Shown: positions 1 to 44,405 of the stretch, piece after piece
Layout: each line of letters starts with the position of its first letter
How positions within the stretch are numbered: position 1 is the first letter of the stretch
From: Ehretia macrophylla
Taxonomy: Eukaryota > Streptophyta > Magnoliopsida > Boraginales > Ehretiaceae
Length of the DNA: 64,000 nt
Assembly (NCBI GenBank): GCA_037974665.1
Contig: CM075769.1
Location: 23,834,139 to 23,898,138, forward strand
Direction: 5' to 3'
Position numbers and translations under genes: made by a program
Notes under the pieces: model-generated
Database searches by the model: none
The model's input: the letters and a program-made list of their open reading frames with translations, nothing else
What the model was told of the DNA's origin: nothing

Positions 1-620
1 GCACAACAATTTAGATTGATAATATGAAATGACGCAAAATTTGGGGGGTTATGTTGGCTGATTGTTCCAGCGTTGGACAGTGGGCTATCCAACGTTGGAC
101 AACCATATTTGGGTGGCCTTTGGGCTACACTCGCAGTGTCCTAATTGTGTGCTATGTTGGTTTTTGGTTAGGTGATGTTCGGGGGTAAATGTGATTGTGT
201 TTTTGCATTGAATATGGCTAGTTTTGAGCTAGAATGTTGCTAGGAATTGAGTAGCATGTTGAATTAGTTTCTTTAGTTGTTAAACGTGTTATCGAGTGTT
301 GCTTTGATGTAGATGTGATTAGCGTAAATGAAGAAGTCGTGATCATGCTAAATTTGGCTTAGATGCTTGCTTACTTGGTTGATGCCTTATGAAATGATTA
401 TGAAATGCGTAAATGTTTGGGGAAACAACTTACTTTGTTGTTTTCTCTTGTTTGTCGTGATGCGTGAATGTGTTATTTGTGAATGCGTGATGCGAGCGTA
501 AGGTTGCAACCTTTAAACAGACACGGTAGCGTTCAGGTTGCATTAGACGACATAGGGCTTGTCAGGCGATCACATGACTACCGATGATCTAATCCCTGTC
601 TCGAATGAACAGAGTGTTTC
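1..620 (+). repeat. Ty3/gypsy LTR (element B), left part
   Basis: No coding capacity is seen. This stretch and 13998-14763 are the two sides of one LTR: they are separated by element A, whose 5-bp target duplication ATTAG lies at 621-625 and 13993-13997. The right part ends in a block homologous to the end of the element E LTR (GGGGTCGAGTTAGGGCGTGA), so B belongs to a related chromovirus LTR family. The start lies outside the window. The segment holds the structured module at 524-583. Confidence 0.7.
524..583 (+). other. Structured module H1 in LTR B
   Basis: CGGTAG (524-529) is the exact reverse complement of CTACCG (578-583). They enclose ACGACATAGGGCTTG, which resembles the GGCGGCATCGGGCTTGCC core seen at the equivalent place in other LTR families here. 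A short GGTTGC/GCAACC pair lies just upstream and inside. This is read as a candidate RNA stem-loop; function unknown. Confidence 0.5.
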
Positions 621-4872: not shown

Positions 4873-7318
4873 TGTCACGCCCCAACTCGACCCCTCCTAT
4901 AATCAGTCAGGACGCAACGGAATTTCGGCAGTATAACGACAGTAAATAGGACACCGAGGCTCTAAACCAACCTCAATAGAACATCATACATCAACTTCAC
5001 AAACCATACAACAAACAACTCCTCAATAAAATAACAACATACATCATAACCATATTATACAATAAACAGTCCTTGTTATATGCCTCCGTTCCAACATAAT
5101 ACATTAACCCTTAATATACAATACAAAAACATATTGAGCCAATCTAGCAACCTAATCATAAACAAAAGAAAAGCTACTAAGACAACATCAACTAATTCAT
5201 TAACTTATCAACATCTTATACATTATAAACTACAAAGAAGATAAAAGTCTACTAAGTTAATTTACAAGATAATAAAACATGTACGACATCACGGATAAGA
5301 CTCTGGAACATAGGACTCATCCACGTAAGGCACGTTTTCCACATTCTCCTCTTCAGGAGGCACGTACTCGTAATCTTGCAAAAGTACACCTGTATGCATG
5401 CAATAATAGAGAGTGAGCTTATATAAAATAAGCCCAGTGAGGATCCGATAGATCTCGAGCAAGGTCTACTAAAATCCTTGGAATAATCCTTTGAGTCAGA
5501 AAACACACAATAACATAAATAATACTATCATCATATAACTATATAACCATTCAATAAAGGATACTCTATTTGGATTAGCTCCAAACGCCATCACGATCTC
5601 AACCGTTCTTCTTATAACTCCCCATTACTCACGCACCCGAGGTACCTCACTAGCCCCTCCCTCCATGACACCTCCGTCATGCGAGCTGGGGGTAGCCTCT
5701 GGCAGTCATGCCGTTATCAACCCGATAGCCCAACGCTGCCCGAGAGGTGGCACACACATACCAAGACTCCATAATCATCATCAATCATCAATCAATCATC
5801 AATCAATTATCAATCAATCATCAATCAATAATCTGGGAGATCAGCAACAAAAGTGCCCGATTCCCGTACTCAATAATCAATCAATATAACATCAATATTT
5901 AATTAAACAACAAACAACTAAGTTAGATGACAAAGTAGGCCATCTAACCGAACATGCATTAAACACACAATCAAACCCTAGTTTACCCATTATCAACTCA
6001 CAATTCAATCACTCAAACCACACCCAATCAACTAAGGCTCAATTCAACAATTTAAAGAAAGATAACCTAAACTTCAATAAGTCATATCTTACATTCTACT
6101 AATCCAAACAACTCCAAATCAGTTTCAAACACTCACCCATTCAATCAACTACATTAGCCCCCTCGGAAACCAACCAAAACACATCCAAATCATGCCCAAT
6201 AACCCTAAAACCCTAAGATGTCATGGCTGAAATTTCCGAATTTTGGCACGAACATCACAATCAAAAATTCGGCATTACAACGGCGCTACCACGTAATTAA
6301 CAAACTTTTAGAAATCGACGGCAATCGATTCCGATCAACACAACTCAATTTAATCAACTTTGAACAAATTAATCAAATTTAAATACCCGAAAAATAAAAA
6401 TTATGCTGCAACCGATAAAAACTCGTAGTATTACAGCTAAATGATCCCTAGCATGCAAGGAGCAATAATCTAACATCAGATTAACATTCTAACGGTTCAA
6501 TAATCATTTATACGCATAAACACAAAATATGAGTTTTGAGATCTAGAATTTTTCTCTCACCTTTGATGTGTTTTGATGCAAGAAATGTGTAGAATGGATG
6601 CCAAACAATCAATTTCAAGTTTTGAATCACTCAATTCGGCTTTGAAACGCAAAATCTGTGAGAAAAATGCTTTGAAAATGCCTTTATCTTTCTCCTCCAA
6701 GGAGCCACGGTTTTGTGTGTATTTTTGGTGGTGTTTTGCTTTGTTTTCAATGTGTGTTGATCATATATTAAGCTAAGGTCAAATAAATAAAAGAAAGTTA
6801 AAGTGGAAACTAATTATTTTTAGTGTTTTCTTGACTTTAAATGCATTTTCTTGATCACCAAAGTTCAAAACAATTATTCAACACCCAAGCTAGCTCAAGT
6901 AGGTTATTTTTAGGTGACAAGAAGTTTTACAATCAAACAATTCTACCCGAGTCGGCTTAAAACTCGATTTTCGCAAAAGTCGGTGTAAAAACCCTAATAA
7001 ATTCCTAAGCCGATTTTAAAATTGTTTTAATCAAACACAGGTCTATTAAAGTCCGTGGACTAGGTCTAGAGGGGTTAAAAAGACTAGTTTCAAAATTTTA
7101 GCGGACGTGTTTCGAAAACACTATTCACTGAAAATCGACGATAAAATTTATGACTCCGTTTTTGATAAAAATTTCATGAATGCACATTTAGCACGTATTA
7201 GGAGTATTGACATCAAAATTATAACATTCTAGGTCATATAGCACATAAACAGGTCAAATGCACACAAAACGAGATAAAATACGTAAATCGAGTTAAAGCA
7301 GAAAAGTGGGGTTTCACA
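4873..7318 (-). mobile_element. Solo LTR, element E family
   Basis: Minus-strand LTR of 2446 bp. Its plus-strand ends are TGTCACGCCCC and GGGGTTTCACA, identical in type to the element E LTRs. It is flanked by the direct repeat TGGTA at 4868-4872 and 7319-7323, so it is a complete solo LTR, presumably left by recombination between the two LTRs of a full element. It is clearly diverged from the E LTRs, so older. It interrupts the interior of element A. Confidence 0.93.
5289..5389 (-). other. Conserved short reading frame in LTR (candidate 3' exon)
   Basis: On the minus strand, after a possible acceptor (ACAG at 5390-5393), a frame reads through DYEYVPPEEENV and VPYVDESYVPESYP to a stop. The same peptide ending appears in the element E LTRs and in the solo LTR at 23658. 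There is no obvious start codon in a preceding candidate exon, so translation is not established. Confidence 0.4.
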
Positions 7319-7575: not shown

Positions 7576-10452
7576 AGCAACAACCCAGACCCAGCATATA
7601 GTCTATCATACTTAATTGCATAGACATTTGTGCCGGTTTAAGTGTTATATGTGTTTATGTGCCTATTTTTAGCATTTAGGTTTATATATAGAAGTTTTAT
7701 TTTTCTTCTGCTTTACTTATTTTCTTTAAATGGACACTACTATTTATTAAATTCAAATAAAAATATTTTAACTATTATTTTGTCATTTTTATTTTACGAG
7801 ATTGTTCTTAGCACTTAATTAGCACTTAATTAACTTATTTTCATCATTTTTGAAACGAGCCATGAACCCGGGGTAAAAATTAAAGTATTTTCTTTAGCAA
7901 ATCTCATATTTTTTCCTTATCATATAAGTGATTTTGGGCATACGTTCATAATTTTTATTGGCATAACACGTCGGAAAAGTACATTACAAAAATATTTTTT
8001 GAACTGTATGAATAGTAAAACAATGTTTAAGTGAGTTAGTTGGTTTAATTAGACTTTTGGGCCTTGAATCGATAGGTTTGCACTTTAAAGATCCTAAATA
8101 ACTTACATATACATATTATATATACATAATACATTACATACATATACATAGCTTACAAAACAATTACAAAATTTCTCATCTTGTCCCCCCCCCTTGGCCG
8201 ACAGCAAAAACAAAGGAAAAGAGAGAATTTCATCTTCAAACCTTGCTCTCTTATGCTCTTTCAAGCTATCTAAGGGTGATTCAAGCTAGCTTAGGCCTTC
8301 TACTTGCATTTATAGCCTTTATTGGTAAGGGATTTAGCATAAATTTGCACATATATTGTTTATGTCTTGACTTCAAAATTTATAGATTTGTTAATATTAG
8401 CTTATGTAATGCTTGAATATAGTATTATATGATGTCTACATGCTATGGAGACTTACTTTATGTAGCTTATTGGCTTAGTTATCGAATTCTTGCAGTGGAT
8501 CAATTTTAGACGATGATAAAAAGTAGATTTCTAGGGCTTTTGTTAAATTTTGATTGTGAGCATGATTTTATGATATATAAGGATTCCATAGGAGCTATTG
8601 AACCTAGGATTGTGATTAGAATGGATAAAATTCGAATAAACTTGAATGAACTTGTGAAATTAGCTTGAATTCAAAAGCGCTTTGTGTGAATTGGTTGTTC
8701 GGGTGTGTTTGAGTGCCATAGGTAGTGTTTATTATGTTAGGTAATGCTTAAAATATAATTATGGCATTGAATTGAGAATCGGTTTGCATAGTTGTAGTTC
8801 AAATGGTCAAAGGGGCAATTCGGGGTTTTGGGGTAGACGTAGTTAAAAACGGGGTTTCTTGGCTTATAAAGAGGTCATAAAGTGTCCTATGAAAGTTAGA
8901 ATTGTTGGATTTTGGTTTGCATGACTTTCGATTAGTGTGAGTTTGTAATTAGATTAAAGGGGTTGGTTTATAGAAAGATTAATTTGTTTTTTATAATTGG
9001 CTTCAATTAATTGGCTAAGGGTTATAAGGGCTTTGGTATAGCATGTGTAGTTGTTTGGAGAAGTTTCATGAAATGCATAGCATAGTTACCTTATTAGAAA
9101 ATACTTGTATTTTGCCTATATTATTATTTTGTCTATATTCCTTGTAAAATTACCCAGTATATGTTATCTTGTATGGTTATCGAATCGATTTTCCTTGGAA
9201 ATTATAGATATCATCGAGTGAAAACTCACACCTATTGTTATCATTACTGTGGTTACGCAACCATTCGCATGGATGTAGTGGCCACCCACTGGCTGACATT
9301 AGGTTTGCCAGTGGTTGTCTATCCTCCATAGCTATTCCCACTCTCGCTAGGGATGTCACCCTGGGAGAGCTAGGTCATTGGATTAATGGGGTATTATATC
9401 TGGATCCCACGTTTGGTGTATAGGGTTATGCCGACTTATCGATATCGAAATTATTATTGTCTATTTGAGTTCATGGCTCGTGTTTCGTGGTACATGGCTC
9501 GTGGGTCGTGGTTCATGCTCGTGGTCATCCTCATATCCTTTTTAATTAGTAACTCTCACTTGGGCCCTAAGTCCTTGAAGAGTTACCATTGCTTGTGTTC
9601 TTATATTTGTGTTAATTAGCTTGTATATTTAAATTGTGTGTTATATTGTTATTGTTTCCTCTAGGTTGCTTATTATAATTGTTCTATCGTGGTTGATTTT
9701 CCTAGTTTCATTTTGTTAATTTGCTTTATTTTTAGCTATTGCAATGTGCGAAACATTTTCCAAACGCCCCGGATATCTGTTTCCTCTCCTTCACTGAGCA
9801 ACTGTGTTGCTCACTCCCCCTTTCAAACTATTTCAAGTTCGGTGCCTCCAGAGTCTGAGGTGAAGAAAGCTCAAGAATCTCCTTGATTGGATGTTCTAGC
9901 TTTAGTTGATTGTTTCTATGTAAATTTGTGTTAGTTATGTTTTCTTTTGAGGCATGTTTGCCTTGTATATGTTGGTTGTCATAGGAATGCAATATGAAGT
10001 TAAAGACTCGTATGATTTATTAGATAGTAGTGGGTTTGTAATAACTTAAAGCATTACTATATTGCCTAGTTTAGCTTGCATGTTTGTGTGAGTTTAAATG
10101 GAGGATGGTTGAAATACTTAATATTTAAGAAAGTTTAATAGAGAATATTAGAGTGGTATGATAATCAGAATTAAAATCGTAGGATTTCCAATAGCTAACG
10201 GAAACACATGCTTGAATGTTTTATTTTGTCAAAATAGAAAGACTCGGATAGCCTTAGAGACTTGGGAAAAGTTATGATTAATGAAGTTGTGGTTGTATAT
10301 GAGTGCCGTGTATTGTTGTTGTGGTTATTTCTTCTGAGTGCAGGTATGTGGATAGACCTATATACAAGGAAAACTCCGTCTGTTTTCTCTCGTTTTTCGT
10401 GACCTTAGGTTTTGGATCGAGGCTCTGGTCTCGTGAGGGATCGGGGTATTAC
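7576..10452 (+). repeat. Element A 3' LTR
   Basis: Homologous along its length to 626-3501. The last base of the LTR is 13992, because the solo LTR at 10453-13986 and its target duplication separate it from the body. The internal landmarks match the 5' copy: H1 at 9286-9314, a diverged H2 near 9549, and a frame ending SVPPESEVKKAQESP-stop near 9886. Confidence 0.88.
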
Positions 10453-13400
10453 TGTGATGCCCAAGAATTTCACCGTACACCTATTAACTGTTGCATCTAC
10501 TATTTGCGCATTTTCACTATGCATTACTTGTTGCTTATGTGGTTACTATTCATCGCGCTTTTCAACTACTTAATTAATTCGAATTATCATTTTTCTTAAA
10601 TTATATTAATTGTTTTAGGAATGAGAAAAATGTGCATTTGAGCTAAAAGCGATAGGAGCATCCGTTTAAAAAATGATTTGTTGAAACTAATGAATAGTAT
10701 TACGTAACAAAACTATGTGTTTTGATTAGCTATCATTTAAATTGCACTTAGGACTCACTTTAAGCTAGCTTAATTCATATTTTGACCAATATACTCACAC
10801 AAAAATAAAATATATAGACTTATATATGTTCAATACCTCACACTAAGTTCATAAGTTAGCAAAACACAAAAAAAAAGAGGAAAAACTAAAAATACTGTAG
10901 CAAATCCGAAAATAGCATAGGAGGAGAAATAGAGATTTTTGCTCAACAAATTCTCATTTCAAGCCAAGCCAAGCTAGGTGCAAGTGATTTAGGGTGTTTA
11001 CTAACCTCCTAGGAGCTCCTACGCGCAATAGGTGAAGGATTTGATACCTATTTTTGCATTTCAAAAATGTGACAACTTTCTTGAATTTCTTGTTTTGCTC
11101 TTAAATGCTAATACAATGCTCAAATATGCTTATGTATGTTATATATAAGTAGTAGAGACCTAATTTATGCTATTTTTTCGTAGTTTAATCGGTTAAAATT
11201 GATCGTTGAATATTTGGCATGAATAGTGACGGGAATGTTAGGATTTTGTGAAATTGGACTTTATAACTTGAATCAATGATCCTAATAGGTGTTTTAGATG
11301 TTAATGAAAGTAGTGTAAAGACCCAATAACATTTAATTGCTTATAACATAGCAAAAGAATGAAATAGCTGACTTTTAGAAAGGGGTTTTGGGGTTATCGT
11401 GAATCTGGGTTGAATTGGCCTCCATATTTAGTAATCCTAGGCTATTTAGGACCTAACTAAGCTTTGCTAGTTCCTATTTGAGTCCTAGTTGAGATACGTG
11501 TAGTACAAAGTCAAAAGAGAGAATTTGGGGATTTCGGGCTAAATGCAGGTAATCGCGCGAATTTGAGGTCCTAAGTGGTGTCATTAAGTGTCATTAGGAA
11601 GGTAGTATAGCTTGGTTGCCTACCTTGAACTTCGTATTACGTTTGGAAGCTAATTAGCCTTGAATTGCAAATGGGATGTTTTGACTGAGTGTAGAATTTG
11701 CTCAGTTTGAGTGTTGGCATTGTCTTGGGAGGTCATGGAAGCACTTTTGGTATGGTTATGGCATTAGTTGGGTGATTGGTTAACTTAGTTGTAGTATAAA
11801 TCAACTAAGGGGACAAATGGAGTTTTGTGATTGTTATAGTTTAAACGGGTTTTCTTTGCATTTAAATGGATCATAATATGGATAGGTTTGCGTGGTGAAA
11901 ATAGATTTCTATTATCATAGCTCGTTGGGATGTGATAGCTTGAGAAAATTAGAGAAAATAATAGTATTCTATTGAGTTTTTGTGACTTTTTCTCAATTGA
12001 TGGTTTTAGTGTTTCTATTAGGTGCCATTAATGCTAGATGGCTCAAATGTTTTCTTAAACCCATTAAAAGATGGCTAGAAGTTGGTTAGAATGACTAGAA
12101 CATAAAGAGGGACATTTAGGGCAATTGGTTTGTTCTAGTGTTTTAGGTGTTTATTGAACTTCCTTGTGGTTGGTTAGTGACCGTTGAATGCTTGGAATAC
12201 TCGTAGTATCCTCATGTTGCTTAGAAGATAGATTTTTAGTTAGGTTTACGAAAGGGGCTTTCGGAATAGAGTTGGGTTATTTGCTAAGTTTTGATTGGAC
12301 TTGATAGGTTAGGTGGTTATGGGTGATTATCTAAGATATGGCGTTATCCAGAGAATGTTTCATGAACTGAATTGCATAATTGTTTTTCTTGAATTGAAGA
12401 TTCTAAGTGAATTCTTGTTATAGTAATTATATTGCCATAGTTCTAAGTGTTTTCCTTGAGTTTTATATTGAGTTAATTGTAAAGAGAATAAGTATGGATT
12501 AATGGTTTTATAAATTGATAGTACTATTATAGAATTAAATATGGTTATCTATGCTTAAAATGCTCTTTAAAATGATTGTAGAACATGCTTATATCACGAT
12601 TTTATTGTTGTTAGTTATATTGTTTGTATATTAGATTACTTGAATGATTACTTGGTTGTATGTTAATTAAGTAAACTATGAGTTAGCTAACCTAGTTGGA
12701 TAATTAATGAATGTTGTAGTTACAGAGTAATTGAAACAATGTTTAACTTTATGTTCAAGGTGATTGAGAGTGATTTGAAGCCAATCTTGCATTGTGGAGC
12801 TTGATAGAGGTGAGGGAGACTTCCTCCTTATGTGCATAATAGTTTATTTACTTGTACTTAGATTATGTACACTTATTATCTATATATTGTGTGTGAGGGC
12901 TACCTACTTTATTGTCCCTCAATCATGTGTTTATTGATGTATTCTATTGTTATCATTTTGAGTTCATTGCATCGTGGTTGCGTAACTATTTGGGCATGGT
13001 AGTGTCGTGAAAACTAGGCGGCATCGGGCTTGCCGGTATACCTCGGCTACCATGATTACCCTGTCCCTCTCTCGCTTGGGATGCCGCCCAGGGAGAGTTG
13101 GGTCATAGGATTTCGGGGTACATCTGGAGTACACCCATTTTGGAGTTATAAGGGGATGCCGACTTATCGATAACAGTGTCATTATTACATCGGGATTTCA
13201 GTTCGTGGCTCGTGGTTCGTGATTGAAGAACAAGTGAATCATATCATTTTTAATGTGTGGTAACTTGTTGTTTCAATTGTTCTTTGTTTGTAAAATGCTT
13301 TAGTTGTACTAACTGATGTATTGCACGTCCCCGGTATACCTTATCCCTCACTGGGCAATTGTGATTGCTCATACCTCGCTAAACATGTTTCAGGTGGTGC

Positions 13401-13986
13401 AGTTGGAGGAGTTGACCTGATTGTTGTGTGCTATTACTTGAGATTTGAGTGATTGCCTGCTAAACTGTGGAAGACCTTACTTGTTCTACTTTCTATTCTA
13501 TTTTGGAGCCTAAGGGCTTATGTATATATATTTGAGTAGTTGCAAGTTTGAAAGCTAAGTGGATGTAGTGAGTGTTATGGAATTGTGGCATGTAATAACT
13601 TTTGCTTCTGCTTCTAGCTACGTTGCATGCTTGGGTGTGAATGAACGGGTGTATGGTTGGCTTTAATTTCTAAGAATGTTCAATGCTATCATGGAGTGGC
13701 ATGATAAGCGGTTTTGTAAAGCAGTTAAGTTATGAATGCATGCTTGTGTGTATCTAAACTGTTTGTATGTCTTAAAGCTCAGATGGCCTTAAAACTAAGA
13801 TCTTTAGTTATAAATGAATGTCTTGTTATGTTGTGGCATTATTGAGTGGTTACAGGTTTTCAGAATGTCCACGGTACAGGGGAGACTCTGTCCGTTTTTT
13901 CTAAATTTTGTGACCGGTTTTGGTATTGGGTTGAGAATAGCATGGTTATTAGAGCCTCCGGTCTTGTGAGGGATCAGGGCATTATA
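10453..13986 (+). mobile_element. Solo LTR, element D family (3.5 kb)
   Basis: It starts TGTGATGCCC and ends AGGGCATTATA, flanked by ATTAC (10448-10452) and GTTAC (13987-13991), a target duplication with one mismatch. The last 150 bases closely match the ends of the element D LTRs and of the LTR at 54726. It carries a candidate donor (GGTGAAGG, GT at 11032), module H1 (12996-13053) and a candidate acceptor (TTTCAG, ending 13393). No gene is seen. It sits one base before the end of the element A 3' LTR. Confidence 0.85.
12996..13053 (+). other. Structured module H1 in the 10453 LTR
   Basis: ATGGTAG (12996-13002) pairs perfectly with CTACCAT (13047-13053) around AGGCGGCATCGGGCTTGCC. The core matches other LTR families, while the arms do not match them in sequence. 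Confidence 0.6.
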
Positions 13987-13997
13987 GTTACAATTAG

Positions 13998-15751: not shown

Positions 15752-18620
15752 TGTAACACCCCAACCCCTCACGACATCGGGACCTCAATCCAAAACCCCA
15801 AGGCACGAAGAACGAGGAAAAATAGATAGAGTCTCCCCTGTACTTAGGCCAAACCAAAAACTTGCAGACAAAAACATTTTCCACAACAACAATAATTTCA
15901 TCAATGCCACATTCATACCAAGTTCTAATCCAAGTTCAAGCGATAGTTCTAGCCTGCCTTACTTAGACAATATATACAAATACATGCATTCTAGACATCT
16001 ACCAAACTAAAACCATTATACAACTTCATGCATGCCACTCTAATAACTAACTTTGACTTTAATTACAAACTCTTGGCAAGGGAAATACATACAAGACTAT
16101 TAAGATCTCAAGATAGGATACAAGTCATCAACACAAGTAAATAACTTTACATTACATTACGTTACATCCCCACCAACATTACACAAATGGCATCCACTTT
16201 AGCAAGCAAGAAGATAACTCAACTTATATCTCTTAGAAACTAGCTCAGCTGCACCTGAAAAATGTTAGAAAAGAGTGGTGAACATACACTATGCTCAGTG
16301 AGGGAGGGAATAACTGGGGAGTTTTGAAAACGTTTTCGTGCGATGCATATAGGACATTCACTAACTAACATTTTATAATAATTTGAATTAGAACACTTAA
16401 GAACGCAAGAATATGACATTAAATATATTAAACTTGGAAAATAATATAACATTAACGCTATATAACACTTAAAAAAAAAACTCGAAGGTATAACAAGTAC
16501 ATGATAAGCTTGAAATGAGAAATATGGCATTATGCAAGATAAACTTGAAAGCATGATAACTTTAAATGCTATAAGAACACATATAAAAAGGTATGCTCGC
16601 GAACCCCTATGGACACCAATCTTTTCCATGTGGCTACTGCTTTTAAAATGAGTTATGAAACAGTATACGATAGTAATCATTTTAATCCCAAGTAATAATA
16701 GTAATAAGTACATTTAACTCGAGAAACATCAAACTTGACACTGCTTATATTATCACATACAAGCTTGTGGTAGTCATGTCATTATACTAACGAACTCGGC
16801 CGTCCGAAGTGACACGACGCTACCAACCACTTCTAAAACTAAGGTAGTTATGCCAATACACCGACGAACTTGGCCGCCCGAAGTGTCATGACGCTACCTA
16901 ACCATGGTAGTCATGCCAATACACCGACGATATCGGCCGTCTAGAGTGTCATGACGCTACCATGACCCGCTTAATATAATTATGCAACATCAATCATTTA
17001 TTAGTTAATTCCCATGTCGCCAAGATAGCAACAAGCTTTACATTAAAGCTAAAGGTCATGTTTTGAAGATATTCTTAACATCAAGACTTGCAGATAAACT
17101 TGACTCAATGTTCATTAGCATACTATAACTTAAAGTACTTATAACTACCACAATCCTTAGCTAATTAACTAATTAGCTAACTTTATACTTTGTTCCACTA
17201 TGGCATAACATTTACTGCAACATATAAGATTTGATCTAATTCAATGAATTAACTCAATTAACCACGGAGATGCCCACTTAAGCCAATTCAAACAAGGTTC
17301 TCGTGAGGCTAGTACTATAGGCTCGTGACAATTAAATCTCACATATACCAATCAATTCCACTTAATTAACACACACAAGCTTCCATAAGTCTAAAGGGGT
17401 AACTTTATGACCAAGTACCTAGAACCTACAACATGTAATACTAGCATCAAACGCACATATTTTAAGCACTCTGGGCATTTCATAATCACTAACCAACACA
17501 ATTTAACACTTACCAACACTCACACACACACACGACCATTCACACACACTCGGCCCTTTTTATGCACAAACACATTTATAAAATTTTAACCCTATTCTAG
17601 CTAGTTCAAGCATTAATCTAGCTATATGAACACTTTTGGCACAAGCCTCAAGCATGAAAATAAGCCTATAACCTAAAAATCATCAAACTTTAAGAAAACT
17701 CTATTAATTCATCTTCTTCATATGACCATATGCAATATTTAGCTAACAAAGCATAATAAGGTTAGAATACATGTACATACACTTAGAAAATATCAAAGAA
17801 CACATCATCCAAGCATTATAACACCATATATCACTAAAACATTAAGTTACATAAACTTGCCAAAAGCTAAAATGCAAATATAAATTCATCCCTCACCTTG
17901 AAATAGCTTGGATATGCAAGGATCTAAGCTTAAACCACCTCAAGATCTCTTGAATTGCACAATATGACCAAACCCTAGAGTTGTCTTCTTTCCTCTTTTC
18001 CTCTATGCTTGGCCGACCCTAACTTCTTTTTCTTGCTTTTGTTTTTGTATTTTTATGTGTATTATATGATATATATGTGTATATAATGGCTAAGGCTTTG
18101 GGTTATGGTTTGGGTTGGGCTCAAATATTGGGTAGATAACTTAAAACAAGCCCAAACAATTGCTTAGTCTTCTATTAGCCCAATATGCTAGCTAGAAATC
18201 ACTATTCATAAGATACACGAATCATTTTATATCTCTCGCTCTCGATGTGCTATGCACGTAATTCCAAGGTTTGAATGCTTAAAATATGATAGGTATCAAG
18301 GGAAAAATATGAAATTAGAAATATAAAATAGTTGAAAATTCACTCCGGGCTTAGAGCTACTTATTTAAATAATTAAAAATAGTGAAATCTAACAACTAAA
18401 TGCAAAAAAATAATTTAAAATAAATTTGCTACTAAAATAATTAACTCAAATAAATTTAATTAGACGTTGTTCACACGTTTTTCCAAAAATATGAAATTTA
18501 ATACTATTAAATAAATGTAAAAGTTAAAGTAAACACATAAATTCACACAATCACTTAAAATAAACACATAGATATATGCAAATAAATAAAATAAGCATGA
18601 TCTCAGGCTCGGGCGTCATA
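15752..18620 (-). mobile_element. Solo LTR, Ty3/gypsy, minus strand
   Basis: 2869 bp, plus-strand ends TGTAACACCCC and CTCGGGCGTCATA, flanked by GATAT at 15747-15751 and 18621-18625. In its own sense it starts TATGACGCCCGAGCC, like the element C LTR, and ends GGGGTGTTACA. It contains a three-fold tandem array of structured units (16765-16965) and a candidate acceptor (TTTCAG at about 16254-16259). No gene is seen. A 157-codon frame at 16240-16713 is hydrophobic, T-rich and unsupported. Confidence 0.88.
16765..16965 (-). repeat. Three tandem copies of a structured H1-like unit
   Basis: Three units of roughly 60-75 bases each begin GGTAGT and end CGCTACC, so every unit has its own closing stem. 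The arms are 16769-16773/16820-16824, 16843-16847/16894-16898 and 16906-16910/16957-16961. Inside each is an imperfect inner stem and a GGCCGNCCGAAGTG-type core. This sits where other LTRs have a single H1 module. Confidence 0.7.
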
Positions 18621-23230: not shown

Positions 23231-25286
23231 TGAAAACATGATGGTTGCAACCATGAAAACACTAGAATTCTTGTTAGTTTGTTAGTTCACTTGGGACAGT
23301 TTATAGAACATAACACGTTGCCACGTAGAAGTACTTTATCATTAGAATATAATAAATGCACGTAAGTGAGAAGTGACAAAAGAAGCCACTCTCATGCATA
23401 TGTATACATGAACATGCTCCAACATCAGTAATCATGCGTTACATTACTTGAGCTAAGTGCCATGCTTTGAAGACATTCATTACACATAATTCAACAAGCT
23501 AACATTTATAAAAAAACTTAAGTACTAAAACATTCTTACTTTTCAAAACTCAAAAACATTTCTTATATTATATAGCTTGAAAAGATTATTTACCTACAAC
23601 CATGACATATAACATATAGCAAAGTAAAGCACTTAAAAATGCACACAAGAATGATCATGTGAAACCCCAGTTTTTGTCTTTATCTCGATTTGCGTGTCTT
23701 TGCCTCGAATTACGTGTTTTAACCTATTCATATGTGTTATATGAATTAAAATGTGCTAATTAAGTGATTAATACTTCTAATACATGACATGTGACCATTC
23801 ATAAATTTTTCATCAAAATCGGCATTAGAAATTTTATCGTTGATTTTTGTGAATAGTATTTTGAACGCACATCCGCTAAAATTTTTACGGGGGTGTTTTA
23901 AACATCTTAAAACCTAGTCCTCGGATATTAATAGACCCGTGTTTGATTAAAACGGATTTTAAATCGATTTTGGAATTTTAAAGGTTTTTACACTTTCTTT
24001 TGCAGTTGCGTTTTTAACCGAGTCGGGTGAAAGTCTTTGCATGAGGAAATTCTTGTCACCTAAAAATAAAATACTTAAAATAGTCTAAGTGTCAAATTAA
24101 TGTTTTGAGCAAGAAATAGTCTAAAATGGAATTAAAAGACTAGGAAAAGACTAAAATACTAAATATACTAATTAGTTTCCACCTTTGACTTTGAGTATTT
24201 TTGTTGACCTTGGCATATAAGAATAATCACACACTAGAATCAACACAAAACATACTCTTACACACACACAAAGGGCCTAAACTCCATAGCCATCTTTGTG
24301 AGCTTTTTCAACATTTTTTCAAAGCAAAGTTTCAATAGAAAACTCATTTGAAGTCCAAACATCTTCATCCAAGGCTTGATTTCACTTGTTGGGCACCTAT
24401 TGCACACATTTCTTGCATAAAAAAAAAACATCAAAGGTGAGAGAAAAATTCTAGATCTTTTTATGTTAATTCATGTAATTGAATTTTTAGCTATTGAAAT
24501 GTTAAATTGATGTTATATTATTGCTCAGTAGATGCTAAGGATTGATTATATGTATTTATATCAGTTTTGAACCGTTGTAGTATGCATTTCTATTTTCGGG
24601 TATTAAAAATTAAGAATTTGGCTATTTGTTGAATACATGATGTTGTGGTTGTTGGAATTGCTTGTTGTTAGTTTCTAAAAGTTTGTTAAATACGTGGTAG
24701 TAATGTTGTAATTCTGAAATTTTGATTGTGATGTCGGTGTGAAAGTCCAGAAATTTCAGCCTTGATGCATTAGGATTTTAAGGTTGTTGGGCTTGATGTG
24801 GATGGGTTATGGTTAGTTTCCAAGGGGGCTAATGTTGTCGATTGAGTGGGTGAGTGTTAGAAACTGGTTTGGAGGTTATCGGATTAGTAGAATGTAAGTT
24901 ATGACTTTTAGAAGTTTGGGTTGTCTTTCTTTAAAATGTTGAATTATGCCTTTAAATGTTTGGGTGGTGTTTGAGTGATTGAATTGTGAGATGTTGATGG
25001 TTAGACTAAGGTTTGGTTGTTTGTTTAATGCATGTTAAATTGGGAGATAGGCAACCTACTTTGTCATCTAACTTAGTTATTTGTTGTTTATTTTATTAGT
25101 TGTTGTTATGTTGCTAAAATGATGATTATTGATTGATTATTGTTGAATAGGGAGATAGGCAACCTACTTTGTTGTCCTCCTGTGATAATTGATTATTGAT
25201 GAGCCGGCAGATAGTCAACGTGAAAGGTTGTCATCCTGAGATTTGAATGATTATTATTATTGTCATGAGTCTTGGTATATGTGTGT

Positions 25287-27405: not shown

Positions 27406-28131
27406 ATGGGGCCCCATCGTTAGACTAGAGGTCAGAGTTTAGGTTCTGGGGCAGTAGAGCAAGATCAGTAGACAATTAATGAGCGGATGACAATTGCTAT
27501 AGATAGGATCACACAAGTTCTGCAGGAATAGAGGCAAGGGAGAAACAATTTGGTTGGCAATCCTAGAAATGGCCGTGATAGAGCTGAGGGTAGTAGCAAC
27601 AGTAACAATAATCATCTTGAGAAATTTCTGAAACATGGGCCGACTAGATTTCTTGGAGGGCTAGATGATGAGCAGGTGGAGCTGTGGTTGGGTCAGATTG
27701 AGAAGATTTTCACTGCCCTAGAGTATGTTGATGAGAGGAGAATTTTATTTGTTGTGTTTCTGCTTGACGGTGATGCCGAGCAATAGTGGAGGACAGTGAG
27801 ACTGAGATGGGTGGTGAGAATGTACAACATACATGGGCTGATTTCTTGAGAGAGTTTCGGAACAAATATATTTCGGAGGTGACGTGTGAATAGAGAGAAG
27901 AAGAATTCGTGACATTGAAGCAGGGGGATATGACTGTTGGTCAATATGAGTTCATATTTGACAGACTTTCTCATTATATGCTCGAGCTAGTACAACCAGA
28001 GAGACGGAGGATACATATGTTTATCCAGGGGTTAAGGCCAGATATACAACTTAACTTGTCTTCCCATCAGTTTGTTACTTATGCCTATGCCATCAATGCA
28101 ACGTCGTGGTTAGAGAAACGCAAGGCAAAGC
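27406..28131 (+). pseudogene. Element C gag, first part
   Basis: Begins at ATG 27406. The translation shows the retrotransposon gag core of chromoviruses: a segment FLKHGPTRFLGGLDDEQVE, then WLGQIEKIFTALEYVDERR, and a later part with YEFIFDRLSHYMLELVQPE and MFIQGLRPDIQ. These parallel the element E gag (WISKLEKIFDSLGYTDEKK, RLSQYAPEFVAVEERK, FMLGLRPEIQ). Gag would form the particle shell. It is a broken fossil with a few interruptions, and element D separates it from the knuckle part. The stretch 27058-27405 is leader with TTATGTGA-like short repeats and no gene. Confidence 0.8.
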
Positions 28132-30625
28132 TGTGATGCCCGAGATTGAGCCATGCATTCAATTACTGTTGCATCCCTTGTTTGCGCATCTCCTTCTGTG
28201 CCTTATTAATTGTCTCCTTAAGTTACTATTCACTTCGTTTTTAAACTGCATTCTATTAGTTAATTAGCATTTTTATTAAATCATATTAATTGTTAAAGTA
28301 GTGAGAAAAATGAGCAATTGAGCTAGAAGCGATAGGAGAGCTCGTTTAGAAAATGATTTTTGTAGTTGAATGAATAGTGTTACGTAACAGAACTTGGTAA
28401 ATTAATTAGCTAGCTCACATCCTTCACTTTAGGCTCGTTTTAAGCTTACTACGCGCATTATAATGAACCATTTAGGCACCCAATCAAGACCCCACCTTAG
28501 CCATTCATTAAATAGCCTTAGTTAGCTCATAACATAACAAAGAAAAAAAAAAAAAAAGCTGAAAACAGTAGCAGAGGCCAACAGCAGCTAGGGAGGAAAA
28601 TGAAAGATTTTTCTCATCCAACTCTTCAATCCAAGCCTCTCCAACCCTTGAGCAAGTAGATTAGGGTGTGTGCAAGCTTCCTAGGTGCTCCTACGCACAT
28701 TGGTGAGGGATTTCACGGCTTATTTTCGCATTTCTAAATAGTTGCTATTTTCTTGATTTGTTGAAAATGTGTTAATATGCTATTGTATTGATTATCTATG
28801 CTATTATACCATGTATATGAATGCTAGAGAACATATTTGATCCATCATTTCGCAATTTAATCGGTTGGAATCGTTAGTTTAATTCATGAGGTGAATAGTG
28901 ACATTTTTTTCTAGGGTTTCGTGTAATTGCTCGAATTAGCTTGATTCAACGCTCCTAATAGAAGCCTTAGGTGCTAATGAAGGTAGTCTAACAGCCCTGT
29001 GCACTTACATTGCTCTAGAATCGCATAAAACGTAAAATAGTCGACTTTAATAAAGGGCTTTCGGGGTTAATGCGAATCCGGGTGGATTCGGGCTTCACTT
29101 CTAGTATTCTTAGGCTACCTAGGTGCTATAGAAGCTTTGATAACCCTTGTTTGAAGCCCGGATAAGGTATGTGTAGTTTAAAGCCATAAGAGGGAATTTG
29201 GGGCTTTCGGGGTAATCGCGAGCGTTTGAATGAGTTAGAGGGTTGAGAGGGTAGCTTGAGGGTTAGTTAGAAGGTTGGGAGAGTTTCCCTTGAAAATGGA
29301 ATCATTAACCTTGGTTTGGAAGAGAAATAGTTTGAAAAATAAAGGGGTTTAGGTGCAATTTCGGTTGACTCACACTTCTAAACCCATGGCATGACTTCTT
29401 GAGTGTTTATATGTGGTTTCAAGTTGATTTGGAGCTTTTGGTATGATTCTATGCTTATTTTGTAAATGTCCCTTTGTAAAACTGCTTATTAGCTTATATA
29501 ATTGCTTCTATTCTAACTGCCTCGAGGTCAACCTACTTTGTTGATCCTCCTATGTGTTAATGCTTATATTATTGCTATTAACTTGCCATTGTTAAGTGCA
29601 TTGCATAGTGGTTGCGCAACCATAGTGTCAGGGGCGGATGCGTTGAATATCGGCTAGGCGGCAGAGGGCTTGCCGGTGGATATTCAATCTCCGTGCCCTA
29701 GTCCCTCATTCGCCTGGTCCGGAGATTGCCAGGGAATGTTGGGTCGTAGGATTATCGGGGTACATCCGGAGTACACCCACTGGAGTGTTTGGGGTTATGC
29801 CGGCTTATCGTGATCGTGATCGTGGTTCGTGGATCGTGAATGAAGACCAGTGAAGATTGGTGTATAGGGGTTATGAGAAATGTATCCTTTCAAATATGTG
29901 GTTATTTAAGCTATCATTTTTTTTTGATTTGCTCAATTGTTATTGTTGTTAACTGTATTACTTGTCGCATTGCACGCCCCGGGACTATATCCCTCACTGG
30001 GCAACAGTGGTTGCTCATACCTCGCTAACATGTTTCAGGTGGCACAGTTGGTGGAGTTGCCTTAGCTGCTGTGTGATATTTGTCTGAGGCGGATGTGCTT
30101 TCTGGTTGCTATGTGAAGAATTTGTTGTTCTATGTATAATCTATTTTGGGGCCTTAAAGCTCATGTATGTATTTGAGTAATATGTAAGCTGGAAGTCTAA
30201 TAATGTAGTAGCAGTGGTAATTCTATGGCTTGTAATAACTGATATTTCTATTTCTAGTTGCTTTGCATGCTTGGGAGTGAATGGCTTAGTGTAGAATGTT
30301 TTATCTCTAAGTATGTTTTAATGTTATCCTAGAATGGCATGGTTACTAGACTATATTATAAACAAGTTACTTGCATGCTTGTGTGGTTTTGGAACTGTTG
30401 TTTGCTTCAAGGCTCGGATGGCCTTGAATCTTTAAATATTTAGCCATGAAAAGTTTGTTTACCTTGTAGTTACCTTATTTGAGAATTTACAGGTTTTCAG
30501 AATGTCCATAGTACAGGGGAAACTCTGTCCGTTTTTCCCTAAAATTTTGTGACCGGGTTTGGTATTGGGTTGAGAATAGCATGGTTATTAGAGCCTCCGG
30601 TCTCGTGAGGGATCGGGGCGTTGCA
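28132..30625 (+). repeat. Element D 5' LTR
   Basis: 2494 bp, TGTGATGCCCGAG to GGGGCGTTGCA. Candidate donor TTGGTGAGGG (GT at 28703), module H1 (29643-29687) and acceptor TTTCAG (ending 30038), followed by a frame VAQLVELP-stop. CGTGATCGTGATCGTGG short repeats lie near 29811. Confidence 0.95.
29643..29687 (+). other. Structured module H1 in element D LTR
   Basis: TTGAATATC (29643-29651) pairs perfectly with GATATTCAA (29679-29687) around GGCGGCAGAGGGCTTGCC. A further outer pairing GGGCGGA with TCCGTGCCC is possible. The 3' LTR repeats it at 33176-33184 and 33212-33220. Confidence 0.65.
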
Positions 30626-30627
30626 GG

Positions 30628-30639
30628 TGGTATCAGAGC
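30628..30639 (+). other. Element D primer-binding site (tRNA-Met)
   Basis: TGGTATCAGAGC, an exact match to the usual plant initiator tRNA-Met primer site, two bases after the LTR. Confidence 0.9.
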
Positions 30640-31630
30640 TTAGTTAGCTCTAAGCCGGGACAGGGTCCTCGGCCTGTCGGGTAGTAACCCTTGCGTGTGT
30701 GCTTGTTAAGAGTGTGTCTTGAAAGTGTATGCCTGCATGTGTGATTGTGTGTCTTGTATTGAATGTGTGCACCTATGTGATATAATTATGTGTTACGTGC
30801 TAAATGTGTGCTAAGTGAAGTAAAGTGGCTGGTTATGCATCAAATTGACCTCGTGAATTGTTAATTGCTTGAACTGTTGCTTGTAATGTGTGCATTTGAA
30901 AGTCTTTGATTGAGTTGTGTTATGATGGACTTGATTGTCGTGCTTGAATGACTTTGATGATTACACTGTTTCATAAACTCTTATATAAACATGTTTGCAT
31001 AATAGTTTAAAACATATATGTGTAAATGTGATATCTTGGCATTCATACATGTCCCGTTGAAATGGTAAGAAAGACTTCTTCCTTCCCCTGAAGAGAAGTG
31101 ATTAGCAACAAGCCCTCCAAGTTGTGTGGATTAGCGGGAATGAGAATGTTGTAAGCGGAGCTCAGTTATTGGGATTTCTTCCAAGGCATTCTTCTACGCT
31201 CAATAGTCAGAAATGAATGGCTTCCTTTGGGATTTATATATGACCATTCTCTCGGTTTTCTTATTGAGTATCCTTCTAGTATTTTCTTGCTGGTATTACT
31301 CGGAAGACTTAGTTTGGGATTCTAATCAGCCTTATTATATGGAATTATCTTCTGTATTTGTACTCTAAATTCTTATTGGTATTTTCTCGCCACTGTTAGT
31401 TGGGATTCTATTCTTCTATGGTATTCGTGCCAGCGGAATTCTTATTTGGATTTCGAAGTAGCATCTCTATTGGAGCCTTTATTTGGCCTTATTACATGAG
31501 GTTCGCAGGCAATACTAATGGGATTTCTTAATGAGCTCCCACAAGAGTTCGTATATGGTATTCTTGCTTAGCAACTGATGACGAATAATCGAAGTTGGTT
31601 TTCAGTTGATACAAAGTTCTCTTGTGAAGA
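30640..31630 (+). other. Element D interior, non-coding
   Basis: No long frame and no gag or pol motif. The first 350 bases are leader-like with TGTGTGCAC and CTATGTGATATA phrases. The rest repeats loose TTGGGATTCT, TGGTATTCTTG and TTATTTGG motifs, the same texture as in element A (4448-4872, 7319-7540). Confidence 0.75.
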
Positions 31631-31668
31631 TGAATTGCGTGGACGCAATTTGTTTAAGGGGGAGAGGA
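31631..31668 (+). other. Element D pol-end remnant and polypurine tract
   Basis: One frame reads NCVDAICLRGRG, matching the end of pol in element E (NFKDEISIRRGE). The tract TTTAAGGGGGAGAGGA directly precedes TGTGACGCCC of the 3' LTR. Confidence 0.7.
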
Positions 31669-34158
31669 TGTGACGCCCGAGATTGAGCCATGCATTCAAT
31701 TACTGTTGCATCCCTTGTTTGCGCATCTCCTTCTGTGCCTTATTAATTGTCTCCTTAAGTTACTATTCACTTCGTTTTTAAACTGCATTCTATTAGTTAA
31801 TTAGCATTTTTATTAAATCATATTAATTGTTAAAGTAGTGAGAAAAATGAGCAATTGAGCTAGAAGCGATAGGAGAGCTCGTTTAGAAAATGATTTTTGT
31901 AGTTGAATGAATAGTGTTACGTAACAGAACTTGGTAAATTAATTAGCTAGCTCACATCCTTCACTTTAGGCTCGTTTTAAGCTTACTACGCGCATTATAA
32001 TGAACCATTTAAGCACCCAATCAAGACCACACCTTAGCCATTCATTAAATAGCCTTAGTTAGCTCATAACATAACAAAGAAAAAAAAAAAAGCTGAAAAC
32101 AGTAGCAGAGGCCGACAGCAGCTAGTGAGGAAAATGAAAGATTTTTCTCATCCAACTCTTCAATCCAAGCCTCTCCAACCCTTGAGCAAGTAGATTAGGG
32201 TGTGTGCAAGCTTCCTAGGTGCTCCTACGCACATTGGTGAGGGATTTCACGGCTTATTTTCGCATTTCTAAATAGTTGCTATTTTCTTGATTTGTTGAAA
32301 ATGTGTTCATATGCTATTGTATTGATTATCTATGCTATTATACCATGTATATGAATGCTAGAGAACATATTTGAGCCATCATTTCGCAATTTAATCGGTT
32401 GGAATCGTTAGTTTAATTCATGAGGTGAATAGTGACATTTTTTCTAGGGTTTTGTGTAATTGCTTGAATTAGCTTGATTCAATGCTCCTAATAGAAGCCT
32501 TAGGTGCTAATGAAGGTAGTCTAATAGCCCCGTGCACTTACATTGCTCTAGAATCGCATAAAACGTAAAATAGTCGACTTTAATAAAGGGCTTTCGGGGT
32601 TAATGCGAATCCGGGTGGATTCGGGCTTCACTTCTAGTATTCTTAGGCTACCTAGGTGCTATAGAAGCTTTGATAACCCTTGTTTGAAGCCCGGATAAGG
32701 TATGTGTAGTTTAAAGCCATAAGAGGGAATTTGGGGCTTTCGGGGTAATCGCGAGCGTTTGAATGAGTTAGAGGGTTGAGAGGGTACCTTGAGGGTTAGT
32801 TAGAAGGTTGGGAGAGTTTCCCTTGAAAATGGAATCATTAACCTTGGTTTGGAAGAGAAATAGTTTGAAAAATAAAGGGGTTTAGGTGCAATTTCGGTTG
32901 ACTCACACTTCTAAACCCATGGCATGACTTCTTAAGTGTTTATATGTGGTTTCAAGTTGATTTGGAGCTTTTGGTATGATTCTATGCTTATTTTGTAAAT
33001 GTCCCTTTGTAAAACTGCTTATTAGCTTATATAATTGCTTCTATTCTAACTGCCTCGAGGTCAACCTACTTTGTTGATCCTCCTATGTGTTAATGCTTAT
33101 ATTATTGCTATTAACTTGCCATTGTTAAGTGCATTGCATAGTGGTTGCGCAACCATAGTGTCAGGGGCGGATGCGTTGAATATCGGCTGGGCGGCAGAGG
33201 GCTTGCCGGTGGATATTCAATCTCCGTGCCCTAGTCCCTCATTCGCCTGGTCCGGAGATTGCCAAGGAATGTTGGGTCGTAGGATTATCGGGGTACATCT
33301 GGAGTACACCCACTGGAGTGTTTGGGGTTATGCCGGCTTATCGTGATCGTGATCGTGGTTCGTGGATCGTGAATGAAGACCAGTGAAGATTGATGTATAG
33401 GGGTTATGAGAAATGTATCCTTTCAAATATGTGGTTATTTAAGCTATCATTGTTTTTTGATTTGCTCAATTGTTATTGTTGTTAACTGTATTACTTGTCG
33501 CATTGCACGCCCCGGGACTATATCCATCACTGGGCAACAGTGGTTGCTCATACCTCGCTAACATGTTTCAGGTGGCACAGTTGGTGGAGTTGCCTTAGCT
33601 GCTGTGTGATATTTGTCTGAGGCGAATGTGCTTTCTGGTTGCTATGTGAAGAATTTGTTGTTCTATGTATAATCTATTTTGGGGCCTTAAAGCTCATGTA
33701 TGTATTTGAGTAATATGTAAGCTGGAAGTCTAATAATGTAGTAGCAGTGGTAATTTTATGGCTTGTAATAACTTATATTTCTATTTCTAGTTGCTTTGCA
33801 TGCTTGGGAGTGAATGGCTTAGTGTAGAATGTTTTATCTCTAAGTATGTTTTAATGTTATCCTAGAATGGCATGGTTATTAGACTATATTATAAACAAGT
33901 TACTTGCGTGCTTGTGTGGTTTTGGAACTGTTGTTTGCTTCAAGGCTCGGATGGCCTTGAATCTTTAAATATTTAGCCATGAAAAGTTTGTTTACCTTGT
34001 AGTTACCTTATTTGAGAATTTACAGGTTTTTAAAATGTCCATAGTACAGGGGAAACTCTGTCCGTTTTTCCCTAAAATTTTGTGACCGGGTTTGGTATTG
34101 GGTTGAGAATAGCATAGTTATTAGAGCCTCCGGTCTCGTGAGGGATCGGGGCGTTGCA
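31669..34158 (+). repeat. Element D 3' LTR
   Basis: 2490 bp, about 98.8% identical by eye to 28132-30625, including an A-tract length difference. A 91-codon frame at 33071-33346 covers module H1 and has no homologue that I recognise; it is treated as chance. Confidence 0.95.
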
Positions 34159-34163
34159 AAAGC

Positions 34164-34742
34164 TGTTAGCTGAGTCCAGCCATCCTAGCAAGAGGCCTAA
34201 TCTATCCCAGAGCCAGAGCCAGCCGAGGCAGCTTCAGACTCCGGATCAGGGTCAGTAGAGCCAGTATCAGCCTCAAAGTTATTCAGGTCCTATCCAGACA
34301 CAGGTACAGTCGAGACCGAGTCAGAGTTCGCATCAATCCATTCAGTCTCTATTACAATTAGAGCACCTACTTAGCCAACTGACAGGTCAACCGATTGTTA
34401 TAAGGACTCAGTCAGAACCGACCTAGATTCAGAGTCAAAGGAGACCAGTTGCTTCTACAGTTCAGAGCTCTCCGAGAGGCAATGCTGCTCATAATATTCC
34501 TCTTTGTACTTTTTGTAACAAGAGGGGCCATTTGGAGGCCAGTTGTTGTAAGAGAATTGGGAAATGTACTGGGTGCAGTAGTGACCAGCATAGGGCAAGG
34601 GATTGCCCAAGGTTCAAGACTGGTCAGGGGCAGTCAGCAGCTAGAGGCAACCAGGGTAGACTAGCAGATATTGTACCTCAACAGCCACTTGTTCAACCTA
34701 GAGTCTTCGTCATTGATCTTCAGGGGCAACTACATCAAGAAA
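34164..34742 (+). pseudogene. Element C gag, zinc-knuckle part
   Basis: Continues gag after element D. A Gln/Ser-rich linker leads to two CCHC knuckles: CTFCNKRGHLEASC and CTGCSSDQHRARDC, each spaced CX2CX4HX4C. These bind RNA in retroelement gag proteins. The sequence then reaches QPRVFVIDLQG, which in autonomous relatives leads into the protease. Here it is followed at once by the polypurine tract and LTR, so no protease or RT exists. Part of a broken element. Confidence 0.82.
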
Positions 34743-34745
34743 GTA

Positions 34746-34782
34746 AGAATTGCGATGGCACACTTTGTTTAAGGGGGGAGGA
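34746..34782 (+). other. Element C pol-end remnant and polypurine tract
   Basis: One frame reads NCDGTLCLRGED, similar to the pol ends in A, D and E. TTTAAGGGGGGAGGA directly precedes the 3' LTR. Confidence 0.65.
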
Positions 34783-42149: not shown

Positions 42150-42166
42150 TTCTCCCCTCCTTATAG
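42150..42166 (-). other. Element E polypurine tract
   Basis: In the sense direction AAGGAGGGGAGAA directly precedes TGTGAAACCCC of the 3' LTR. The same bases encode the RRGE end of pol. Confidence 0.85.
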
Positions 42167-42200
42167 AAATTTCGTCCTTGAAATTCTTACTTGATGTACG

Positions 42201-42344
42201 GAATAGATCTGGGTATTGCTGCTGCATCTGATCTCGTCTCTCCCACGTAGCTTCCTCAATGCCGTGATGCTTCCACAACACCTTAACCATCGGAATCCTC
42301 TTCGACCTCAACTCTCGGTCCATCTGATCTAGAATACGAATCGG
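42201..42344 (-). other. Element E chromodomain
   Basis: RILDQMDRELRSKRIPMVK, then VLWKHHGIEEATWERRDQ and YPDLF form a chromodomain of the type carried at the integrase end of chromoviruses, thought to steer insertion to heterochromatin. Confidence 0.85.
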
Positions 42345-42689
42345 ACGCTCGACATAAGTCAAATTCTCTCGAAGCTGTAACGGCTCTGGCTCAAGAATAT
42401 GAGAAGGATCCGGATTATATTTCCGCAAATTAGACACGTGAAATACATCGTGGACATTAGAGAAGTTCTCCGGTAAAGCCAACTGATATGCCAACTTACC
42501 AACCCTACCAGTAATCTCAAACGGCCCAACAAATCTCGAACTCAGCTTTCCACCTTTACCATAACGAGCAAACCCCTTTCGAGGAGACAATCTCAAGAAA
42601 ACCCGATCTCCAACTGCAAACTCCAAGTCTCGACGACGCTTATCAGCATAACTCTTGAATCTACTCTGCGCCGTAAGCATTCTCTGCCT

Positions 42690-43460
42690 GATCAACTGAA
42701 CATTCTCAATCTTCTCAAGAAGTTCTGGCATAATAGTCGGATCAACAGTCTTCATCTCTCCTACCTCGTCCCAATATAAAGGTGAACGGCACTTACAACC
42801 GTAAAGAGCTGCGAAAGGTGCCATCCCAATAGTAGCTTGATAACTATTGTTATAGGCAAACTCGACAAGTGGTAGATGTTTCTCCCAGTTCTTCCCGAAG
42901 TCCAGAACACAAGCCCTAAGCATATCTTCCAGAATCTGAATAGTCCGCTCAGACTGACCGTCGGTCTGTGGATGATACGCGGTATTGAAGTTCAACTGAG
43001 TACCTAAGGTCTCTTGAAGTTTTTCCCACAAACGAGAAGTAAATCGAGGATCTCGATCAGAGACAATACTAGAGGGAATACCGTGAAGTCTAACAATCTG
43101 ATCCAGATAGAGGTCCGTCAACTTTGTAACCTCATCTCCCATCTTCATCGAGATAAAATGAGCTGTCTTCGTCAAACGATCCACGACAACCCAAACTGCA
43201 TCATTACCCCTCGGTGATCTAGGCAATCCAGTGACGAAGTCCATCGTAATATGCTCCCATTTCCACTCTGGTATAGCCAACGGTTGAAGCAAACCTGCAG
43301 GTCGTTGATGCTCGGCTTTCACTCTCTGACAAGTCAAACATCTAGACACAAACTGAGCAACCTCCCTCTTCATGTTGTTCCACCAGTAATGTTACTTCAA
43401 ACCCCGATACATCTTGGTTCCACCGGGATGAATAGTATATTTAGAATTATGAGCTTTCTC
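42690..43460 (-). other. Element E integrase
   Basis: An HHCC zinc region (HPGGTKM and CLTCQRVKAEHQ) is followed by the DDE core: ITMDFVTGLPRS, IVSDRDPRFTS and HPQTDGQSERTIQ. The C-terminal GPFEI-type module follows toward the chromodomain. Confidence 0.95.
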
Positions 43461-43804
43461 CAGAATACCTCGCCTCAAGCCCGGTTCATCGGGAACACAA
43501 ACCCTGTTCTGAAACCGAAGAATACCGTCCTCATGCAGTTTGAAGTCAGACTGATCACCCGTGATCTGATCCTTGATCTTCTGAAGTTTAACATCAAGCT
43601 GCTGAGCTTCCCTGATCTGAGACAATAATAAAGGCTGAATACGGAGATGTGAACACATCACCCCAACCTGAGTCAACTCTGGTCTCCAATAACTAAACTC
43701 CTCAAGAACCTCCCACTTCTTGACAGCCAAACAAGAAATACTAGCCTTCTGGCTGAGAGCATCTGCCACAACATTTGCCTTTCCAGGCAGATAATTGATA
43801 GAAC

Positions 43805-44140: not shown

Positions 44141-44405
44141 TCTTTTTCAACTCCTGAAACCCACTTTCACACTTCTCATCCCAATTAAAGATAGTCCGTT
44201 TCTGAGTCAACTTAGATAGTGGCCCCGCAATCTTCGAGAAGTCCTTGACAAACCTACGGTAATCACCCGCCAAGCCAAGAATGCTACGGACATCAGTAAC
44301 ACTCTCTGGCCGCTTCCAAGACATCACCGATTCAATCTTAGTGGGATCTACGGAAATACCGCTCTGTGTAATAACATGGCCAAGAAAAGAAATCTGTTGC
44401 AGCCA

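Follow-up and report, generated by a model that had tools for sequence, protein, structure and literature searches.

A probable sense-strand RNA hairpin with kept pairing belongs to a hairpin array in long terminal repeats of Ehretia macrophylla

Long terminal repeats (LTRs) that share little other sequence may still carry, at the equivalent place, a common core enclosed by inverted repeats whose arms differ from family to family, and the question is then whether the changed arms with kept pairing reflect a selected RNA fold, and what such a fold would be for. This question is raised by one locus of the window, by which we mean the whole 64-kb stretch of DNA analysed here. A structured module had been predicted at positions 12996-13053, and the hairpin, termed H1 in the following, is present there on the plus strand: the 5' arm ATGGTAG (12996-13002) and the 3' arm CTACCAT (13047-13053) form the outer stem, which encloses an inner stem and the core GGCGGCATCGGGCTTGCC (13017-13034). 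The model R1 scores it at 70.7 bits, with the copy itself (L001) included in the model. H1 is held by a single long LTR (10452-13990, plus strand; drawn from self-alignment, with approximate ends placed by eye), and the LTR-like stretch around it resembles other LTRs of the window in the same self-alignment.

In the window, eight places match the H1 model R1 with E < 1e-6. Its alignment contained four of these, namely the first LTR of family A, family B, the studied copy and the place at 55659, so that the matches there are obtained by construction; the matches outside the alignment are both copies of family C, the second LTR of family A (E 4.8e-8) and 16888-16975 on the minus strand (E 9.5e-7). 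On the plus strand, H1 spans 2290-2345 in the first LTR of family A (56.4 bits, in the model) and 9257-9345, with a decayed core, in the second (33.4 bits), 524-583 in family B (GACGACA..GTC core, 62.3 bits, in the model as L165), and 29643-29687 (arms TTGAATATC/GATATTCAA, 58.9 bits, folding z -2.54) and 33176-33220 (61.1 bits) in the two LTRs of family C, which the original prediction had called D; family F carries it at 55657-55701 on the minus strand (54 bits, in the model). Six LTR places had been listed in that prediction, and both arms and core are found at A (2303), B (524), C (29643), 55659 (minus strand) and the studied copy, where R1 matches with E <= 1.2e-14, four of these five places being in the alignment of the model. 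At the sixth, the LTR at 23658, the arms GGGTAGC/GCTACCC do stand at the equivalent place, but the core is absent and R1 reaches only 4.0 bits (E 4.9). Three sister copies of this family in the window show C x A at the central arm pair and keep a shifted inner stem, GGYAG/CTRYC, and the 23658 LTR is similar to family T by self-alignment. A place absent from the list belongs to family J, where three successive H1-like hairpins with changed arms and a different loop follow each other on the minus strand (16903-16964, 29.3 bits, z -2.80; 16842-16899, z -3.25; 16768-16825, z -3.10). The LTR-like stretch of family J runs from 18618 to 15752 on the minus strand, with ends placed by eye, and exact matches to its pattern GRCGGCCRAGTTCGTYNGT number only 7 genome-wide. 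Model R1 did not detect H1 in the coding T element.

The core pattern of H1 occurs in 23,284 exact copies in the 1.58-Gb genome (20 contigs), as opposed to none for the reversed pattern. Since copy number by itself could reflect recent amplification, pairing was tested separately. The same core pattern matches at least 120 stretches of the viral_contigs collection, with an LTR context in none of the 80 inspected (L039-L118), and longer H1 patterns gave no match in viral_contigs and genome_contigs, which are viral and prokaryotic collections and therefore uninformative on the breadth among plants.

Among copies, the outer stem of H1 takes forms such as CATGGTAG/CTACCATG, CACGATAG/CTATCGTG, TACGATAG/..TATCGTA and others, and the second stem the forms TCACG/CGTGA, TCGAG/CTCGA and TGTGTC/GACACG, the pairings being drawn partly by eye. 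Also partly by eye, the third stem shows a one-base bulge, after which GRC/GYC closes a 12-base loop, GGCAnnGGGCTT. GGCA/TGCC is an alternative to this inner closing pairing; the genome holds 1,409 copies of GGCGACA..GYC, 420 of GACGRC..GYC and 15 of GACGAC..GTC, counts that do not settle the choice because the ages of the copies confound them. Folded alone, the studied H1 has a z of -1.10, single copies being only modestly better than shuffles, and in a fold of its 240-nt context the 3' arm pairs with the region of H0 (see below) instead. Two further inverted repeats downstream, H2 and H3, first drawn by eye, lacked excess stability and were discarded. A kissing contact between the H1 loop and the sequence that follows the primer site found no support: among 19 distinct stretches 5 nt were shared in 6, 4 nt in 4 and only 3 nt in 9, and at least 5 nt are shared in 19% of shuffles.

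The sample for the analysis of pairing comes from one genome only and consists of 103 entries (101 distinct), i.e. 96 genomic loci and 7 places of the window, with the studied copy as L001 and family B as L165; some entries are the two LTRs of the same element. Fourteen of 115 candidates were left out, L181 and L196 being restored from the arm-swap test onward, and since most of the sample was collected by searching for core patterns, the invariance of the H1 core within it is partly by construction. Grouping at 80% arm identity gave 17 arm families. When the arms were swapped among these families, own arms had a mean energy of -19.1 kcal/mol compared with -14.4 kcal/mol between families, and none of 20,000 permutations was as good. 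A family's own arm was the top-ranking partner in just 5 of the 17 cases, and own arms rank poorly in L181 (where a T run interrupts the 3' arm), L197, L170 and L196. The result was repeated at six family thresholds giving 12 to 34 families, with no more than 1 of 10,000 permutations as good by energy and no more than 8 of 10,000 by the longest Watson-Crick run.

Covariation was counted in an alignment of 34 copies hand-picked for diversity. Both sides have changed in 15 of 21 pairs, which 8 of 500 shuffles equal, and there are 64 two-sided cells as opposed to 31.9 in shuffles (none of 500 as many) and 17-29 when the partner is slid, the latter comparison favouring the structure since it was drawn from one of the 34 rows; further pair types are not above shuffles (254 of 500 as high). 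Such simple counts are inflated by the relatedness of the copies. A tree-aware count used 77 distinct rows, and from it, as from the G.U/A.C count below, 22 of the 103 entries with stems in another register were left out. Using a tree of the flanks, 7 same-branch compensatory events were found against a null mean of 2.4 (6 of 400 simulations reach 7), and using a tree of H1 itself the number was 8 against 1.4 (none of 400 simulations). A generic R-scape-like scan of all column pairs in 78 rows found none significant (best E = 1.7); one likely reason is that the stem of family C lies two columns out of register, as judged by eye.

In the two outer stems (P1 and P1b) G.U cells outnumber A.C cells by 48 to 19, a preference that fits RNA of the sense strand better than DNA. 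When all four helices are counted, A.C (109) exceeds G.U (82), an excess to which the outermost pair, unformed in most copies, contributes 51 and P3 contributes 24, 23 of the latter in pattern-selected rows. The duplexes of H1 are also stronger in the sense (-19.1) than in the antisense orientation (-18.0). H1 shows the compensatory changes above shuffled and slid controls that mark a conserved structured RNA element. The claim that changed arms with kept pairing betray a selected RNA fold is supported by the covariation above shuffles, slid controls and the tree-aware null and by the preference for G.U over A.C in the outer stems, and H1 is very probably such a fold.

Beyond what the original prediction mentioned, H1 is part of a larger set of hairpins: it is very probably a sense-strand RNA hairpin of the LTR, and it is a member of an array formed by H-1, H0 and H1. 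The upstream hairpin H-1 was found in 97 of the 103 entries by a loose loop match, a few of these matches being weak pairings, and it lies 105-130 nt from H1 in the larger families. In the studied LTR it spans 12895-12920 on the plus strand (GAGGGC..CCTACTTT..TGTCCCTC; z -2.26). Its loop is CCTACTTT or a near variant, and its stems vary, as in GGAGGCAAC/GTTGTCCTCC, GAGGGCGGC/GTCGTCCCTC and GATTGGGTAAC/GTTATCTAATC. Stretches with H-1 are also present in family B (412-458, plus strand, z -4.34), family C (29520-29560, plus strand, z -3.18) and family F (55794-55832, minus strand, z -2.52), and the 23658 LTR has two such hairpins (25032-25190, plus strand, z -1.14 and -1.33). No H-1 was found in family A or in family J, the latter at the stretch of tandem hairpins. 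Swapping the arms of H-1 among 18 groups, which include the coding T element and a few chance loop matches, gave -8.9 for own and -6.2 for foreign arms (0 of 20,000 permutations), and here too the sense duplexes (-8.9) are stronger than the antisense ones (-6.7). The exact H-1 sequence CAACCTACTTTGTTG is present 39,107 times in the genome and once in the reversed controls. At some of 100 places listed it repeats 98 or 184 bp further on, and some copies hold two or three.

H0 is located between H-1 and H1, and the order H-1, H0, H1 is the same in most copies. The studied LTR carries GTGGTTGCGTAACTAT (12974-12989, plus strand, z -1.04), an imperfect form of the palindromic hairpin GGTTGCGCAACC, and family C carries GTGGTTGCGCAACCAT (29608-29623, plus strand). 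A perfect palindrome of at least 10 nt is present in 77 of the 103 entries, 74 of them of the GGTTGC type, compared with 6.1% of 1,752 background windows; the GGTTGC-type palindrome of at least 10 nt is found in 9 of 18 family representatives, and the studied copy is without it. Along 17 LTR copies the mean folding z is lowest at H1 (-1.47 when centred, -1.17 on a regular grid) and at H-1 (-1.14), the background of 867 windows having a mean of -0.10, and z at H1 is above -1 in 6 of the 17 copies. In the four LTRs of the window for which its position was measured, the array falls in the 3' half. The primer site TGGTATCAGAGC, which we take to be of the tRNA-iMet type, was detected in 29 of 103 entries, at a distance of 808-1,233 nt (median 1,099) downstream of the core. 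A second possible hairpin, AGCCGGG..CTCGG, seen by eye just after the primer site (e.g. 30640-30680), recurs in several families. No TATA box at a constant distance was found in 22 copies inspected.

The elements carrying the array presumably belong to the Tekay-type group. The gag and pol reading frames of the T element (42060-46931, minus strand) encode gag, zinc knuckle, protease, reverse transcriptase, RNase H and integrase domains in the order gag-PR-RT-RH-IN, with IN after RT and a chromodomain recognised only by eye. An LTR of this coding Tekay-like element contains H-1 at 48176-48204 on the minus strand (GGTTAGATGGC, CTACTTT loop, GTCATCTAAC; z -3.61); hairpin search and folding place a stretch with H-1 in its other LTR (40736-40780, minus strand), and self-alignment and folding place one in an apparently solo LTR of the T family (5913-5957, minus strand). 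The family C element has LTRs that are 98.7% identical and an internal region of 1.04 kb, which contains the primer site (30628-30639, plus strand) and no open reading frame of 100 amino acids. The array is thus retained without an encoded Gag, as seen in one family, C. The element as a whole (28132-34158) has 2.49-kb LTRs around only 1.04 kb, and the spacing of 3,533 bp between its cores recurs on contig 1 in a row of three that looks like chained LTR copies. Other pairs of cores in the genome are separated by about 7.5 kb and 8.4 kb. The segments 34247-34771 and 27595-28127, which flank LTRs of family C, are similar to residues 41-191 of the T-element pol and to its gag. The similarity of L172 to gag was disregarded, since by eye its LTR seems to be inserted into another element.

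A scan of the 64-kb window with 4,227 Rfam families gave no match at the gathering score, and a lax Rfam search of 12850-13300 gave a single match, outside H1, with an E of 4.5; a tRNA search found none. The array is unreported in the literature searched by words and by sequence letters, which is weak evidence with most subscription journals outside the coverage. Hammerhead ribozymes of plant retrozymes are likewise structured RNA within plant LTRs; the window differs in having no Rfam covariance-model match to a hammerhead core, hammerheads being, we assume, among the families scanned. Tekay/Del-type chromoviruses share with the present elements gag, protease, reverse transcriptase, RNase H, integrase and an iMet-type primer site, and a hairpin array of this kind was not found reported for their LTRs in the literature searched. 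There is a likeness in form with retroviral leaders (TAR, DIS, packaging signal) and with the stem-loops of long R regions, where a row of hairpins, one of them palindromic, stands in the LTR or leader and carries conserved loops on stems. Here, the hosts are plant Ty3/gypsy elements, some 1.1 kb separate the array from the primer site downstream, the loops are others, and any function is putative. BARE elements belong to Ty1/copia, a different superfamily from the hosts of the array. BARE2 of barley cannot make Gag and yet is packaged, keeping its dimerisation and packaging signals, and BARE1/BARE2 resemble the present case in that an element deficient in protein retains cis signals and draws on the proteins of its partner (PMC3735527).

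What the array does may be outlined as follows. Lying in the part of the LTR that is presumably transcribed, it would be carried in the leader of the RNA and perhaps a second time close to the 3' end. Its most likely role would be that of a cis-acting docking site, where recognition by Gag or some other factor would single out the genomic RNA for packaging, dimerisation or reverse transcription. The self-complementary H0 could mediate dimerisation, the stems would present the loops GGCAnnGGGCUU of H1 and CUACUUU of H-1 as the recognised parts, and protein-less elements would keep the array to exploit the proteins of another element. The retention of the array in family C, which has no open reading frame of 100 amino acids, points to packaging or reverse transcription more than to translation, and since elements like family C must be transcribed, packaged, reverse-transcribed and integrated with borrowed proteins, a cis-acting RNA signal is favoured. 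We hold the assignment as a packaging or replication signal tentatively, believing it a little less than we doubt it.

A structured 5' leader that controls the translation of gag through ribosome shunting, cap-independent entry or uORF control would fit the presumed location of the array in a leader that extends for about 1.1 kb up to the primer site, and H-1 is present in the coding T element too. Family C with its retained array speaks against this, as does the non-coding nature of the array region, where the longest stop-free run over 360 nt in 16 copies is 44-113 codons in differing frames and strands, and we consider control of translation unlikely. To about the same degree we doubt a putative role in RNA stability, nuclear export or 3'-end formation within the repeated R region, for which one can cite the position of the array in the 3' half of the LTRs measured and the residual conservation of long R regions, which has been linked to stem-loops (PMC3601003).

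Two further readings have less probability. Transcription-factor palindromes or cruciforms would agree with the palindromic H0, whose stem changes little; the arms of H1 and H-1 vary while their loops barely do, which is the opposite of a DNA site, and both the stronger sense duplexes and the G.U preference in P1 and P1b point away from DNA, so that a feature of this kind is very improbable. For maize, a connection between small RNAs and hairpins of genes and transposons has been reported (PMC10760457), and precursors of small RNAs, or else decay and common ancestry with no selection for pairing, could be thought of here as well, particularly as the relatedness of the copies swells the simple counts and no pair reached significance in the generic scan. 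Conservation is found in the loops and not in the stems, and the arm-swap and tree-aware tests favour kept pairing; this reading, too, has little probability.

Returning to the docking site, it is conceivable, though we rather doubt it, that the array amounts to a modular RNA recognition code, in which interchangeable and sometimes tandem hairpins with near-fixed loops (CUACUUU and GGCAnnGGGCUU) would label the RNAs of Ty3/gypsy elements, autonomous or not, for one and the same set of proteins, and families with little other LTR similarity would parasitise one another via the loops. Ty3/gypsy elements can fill plant genomes, and to our knowledge their cis-acting RNA signals in plants are hardly known. 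The array, being defined in sequence and present in tens of thousands of copies, offers specific loops and stems for probing, and a model of the R1 type can be used to seek the same signal in other plants. It could also explain how LTR elements without proteins of their own are mobilised.
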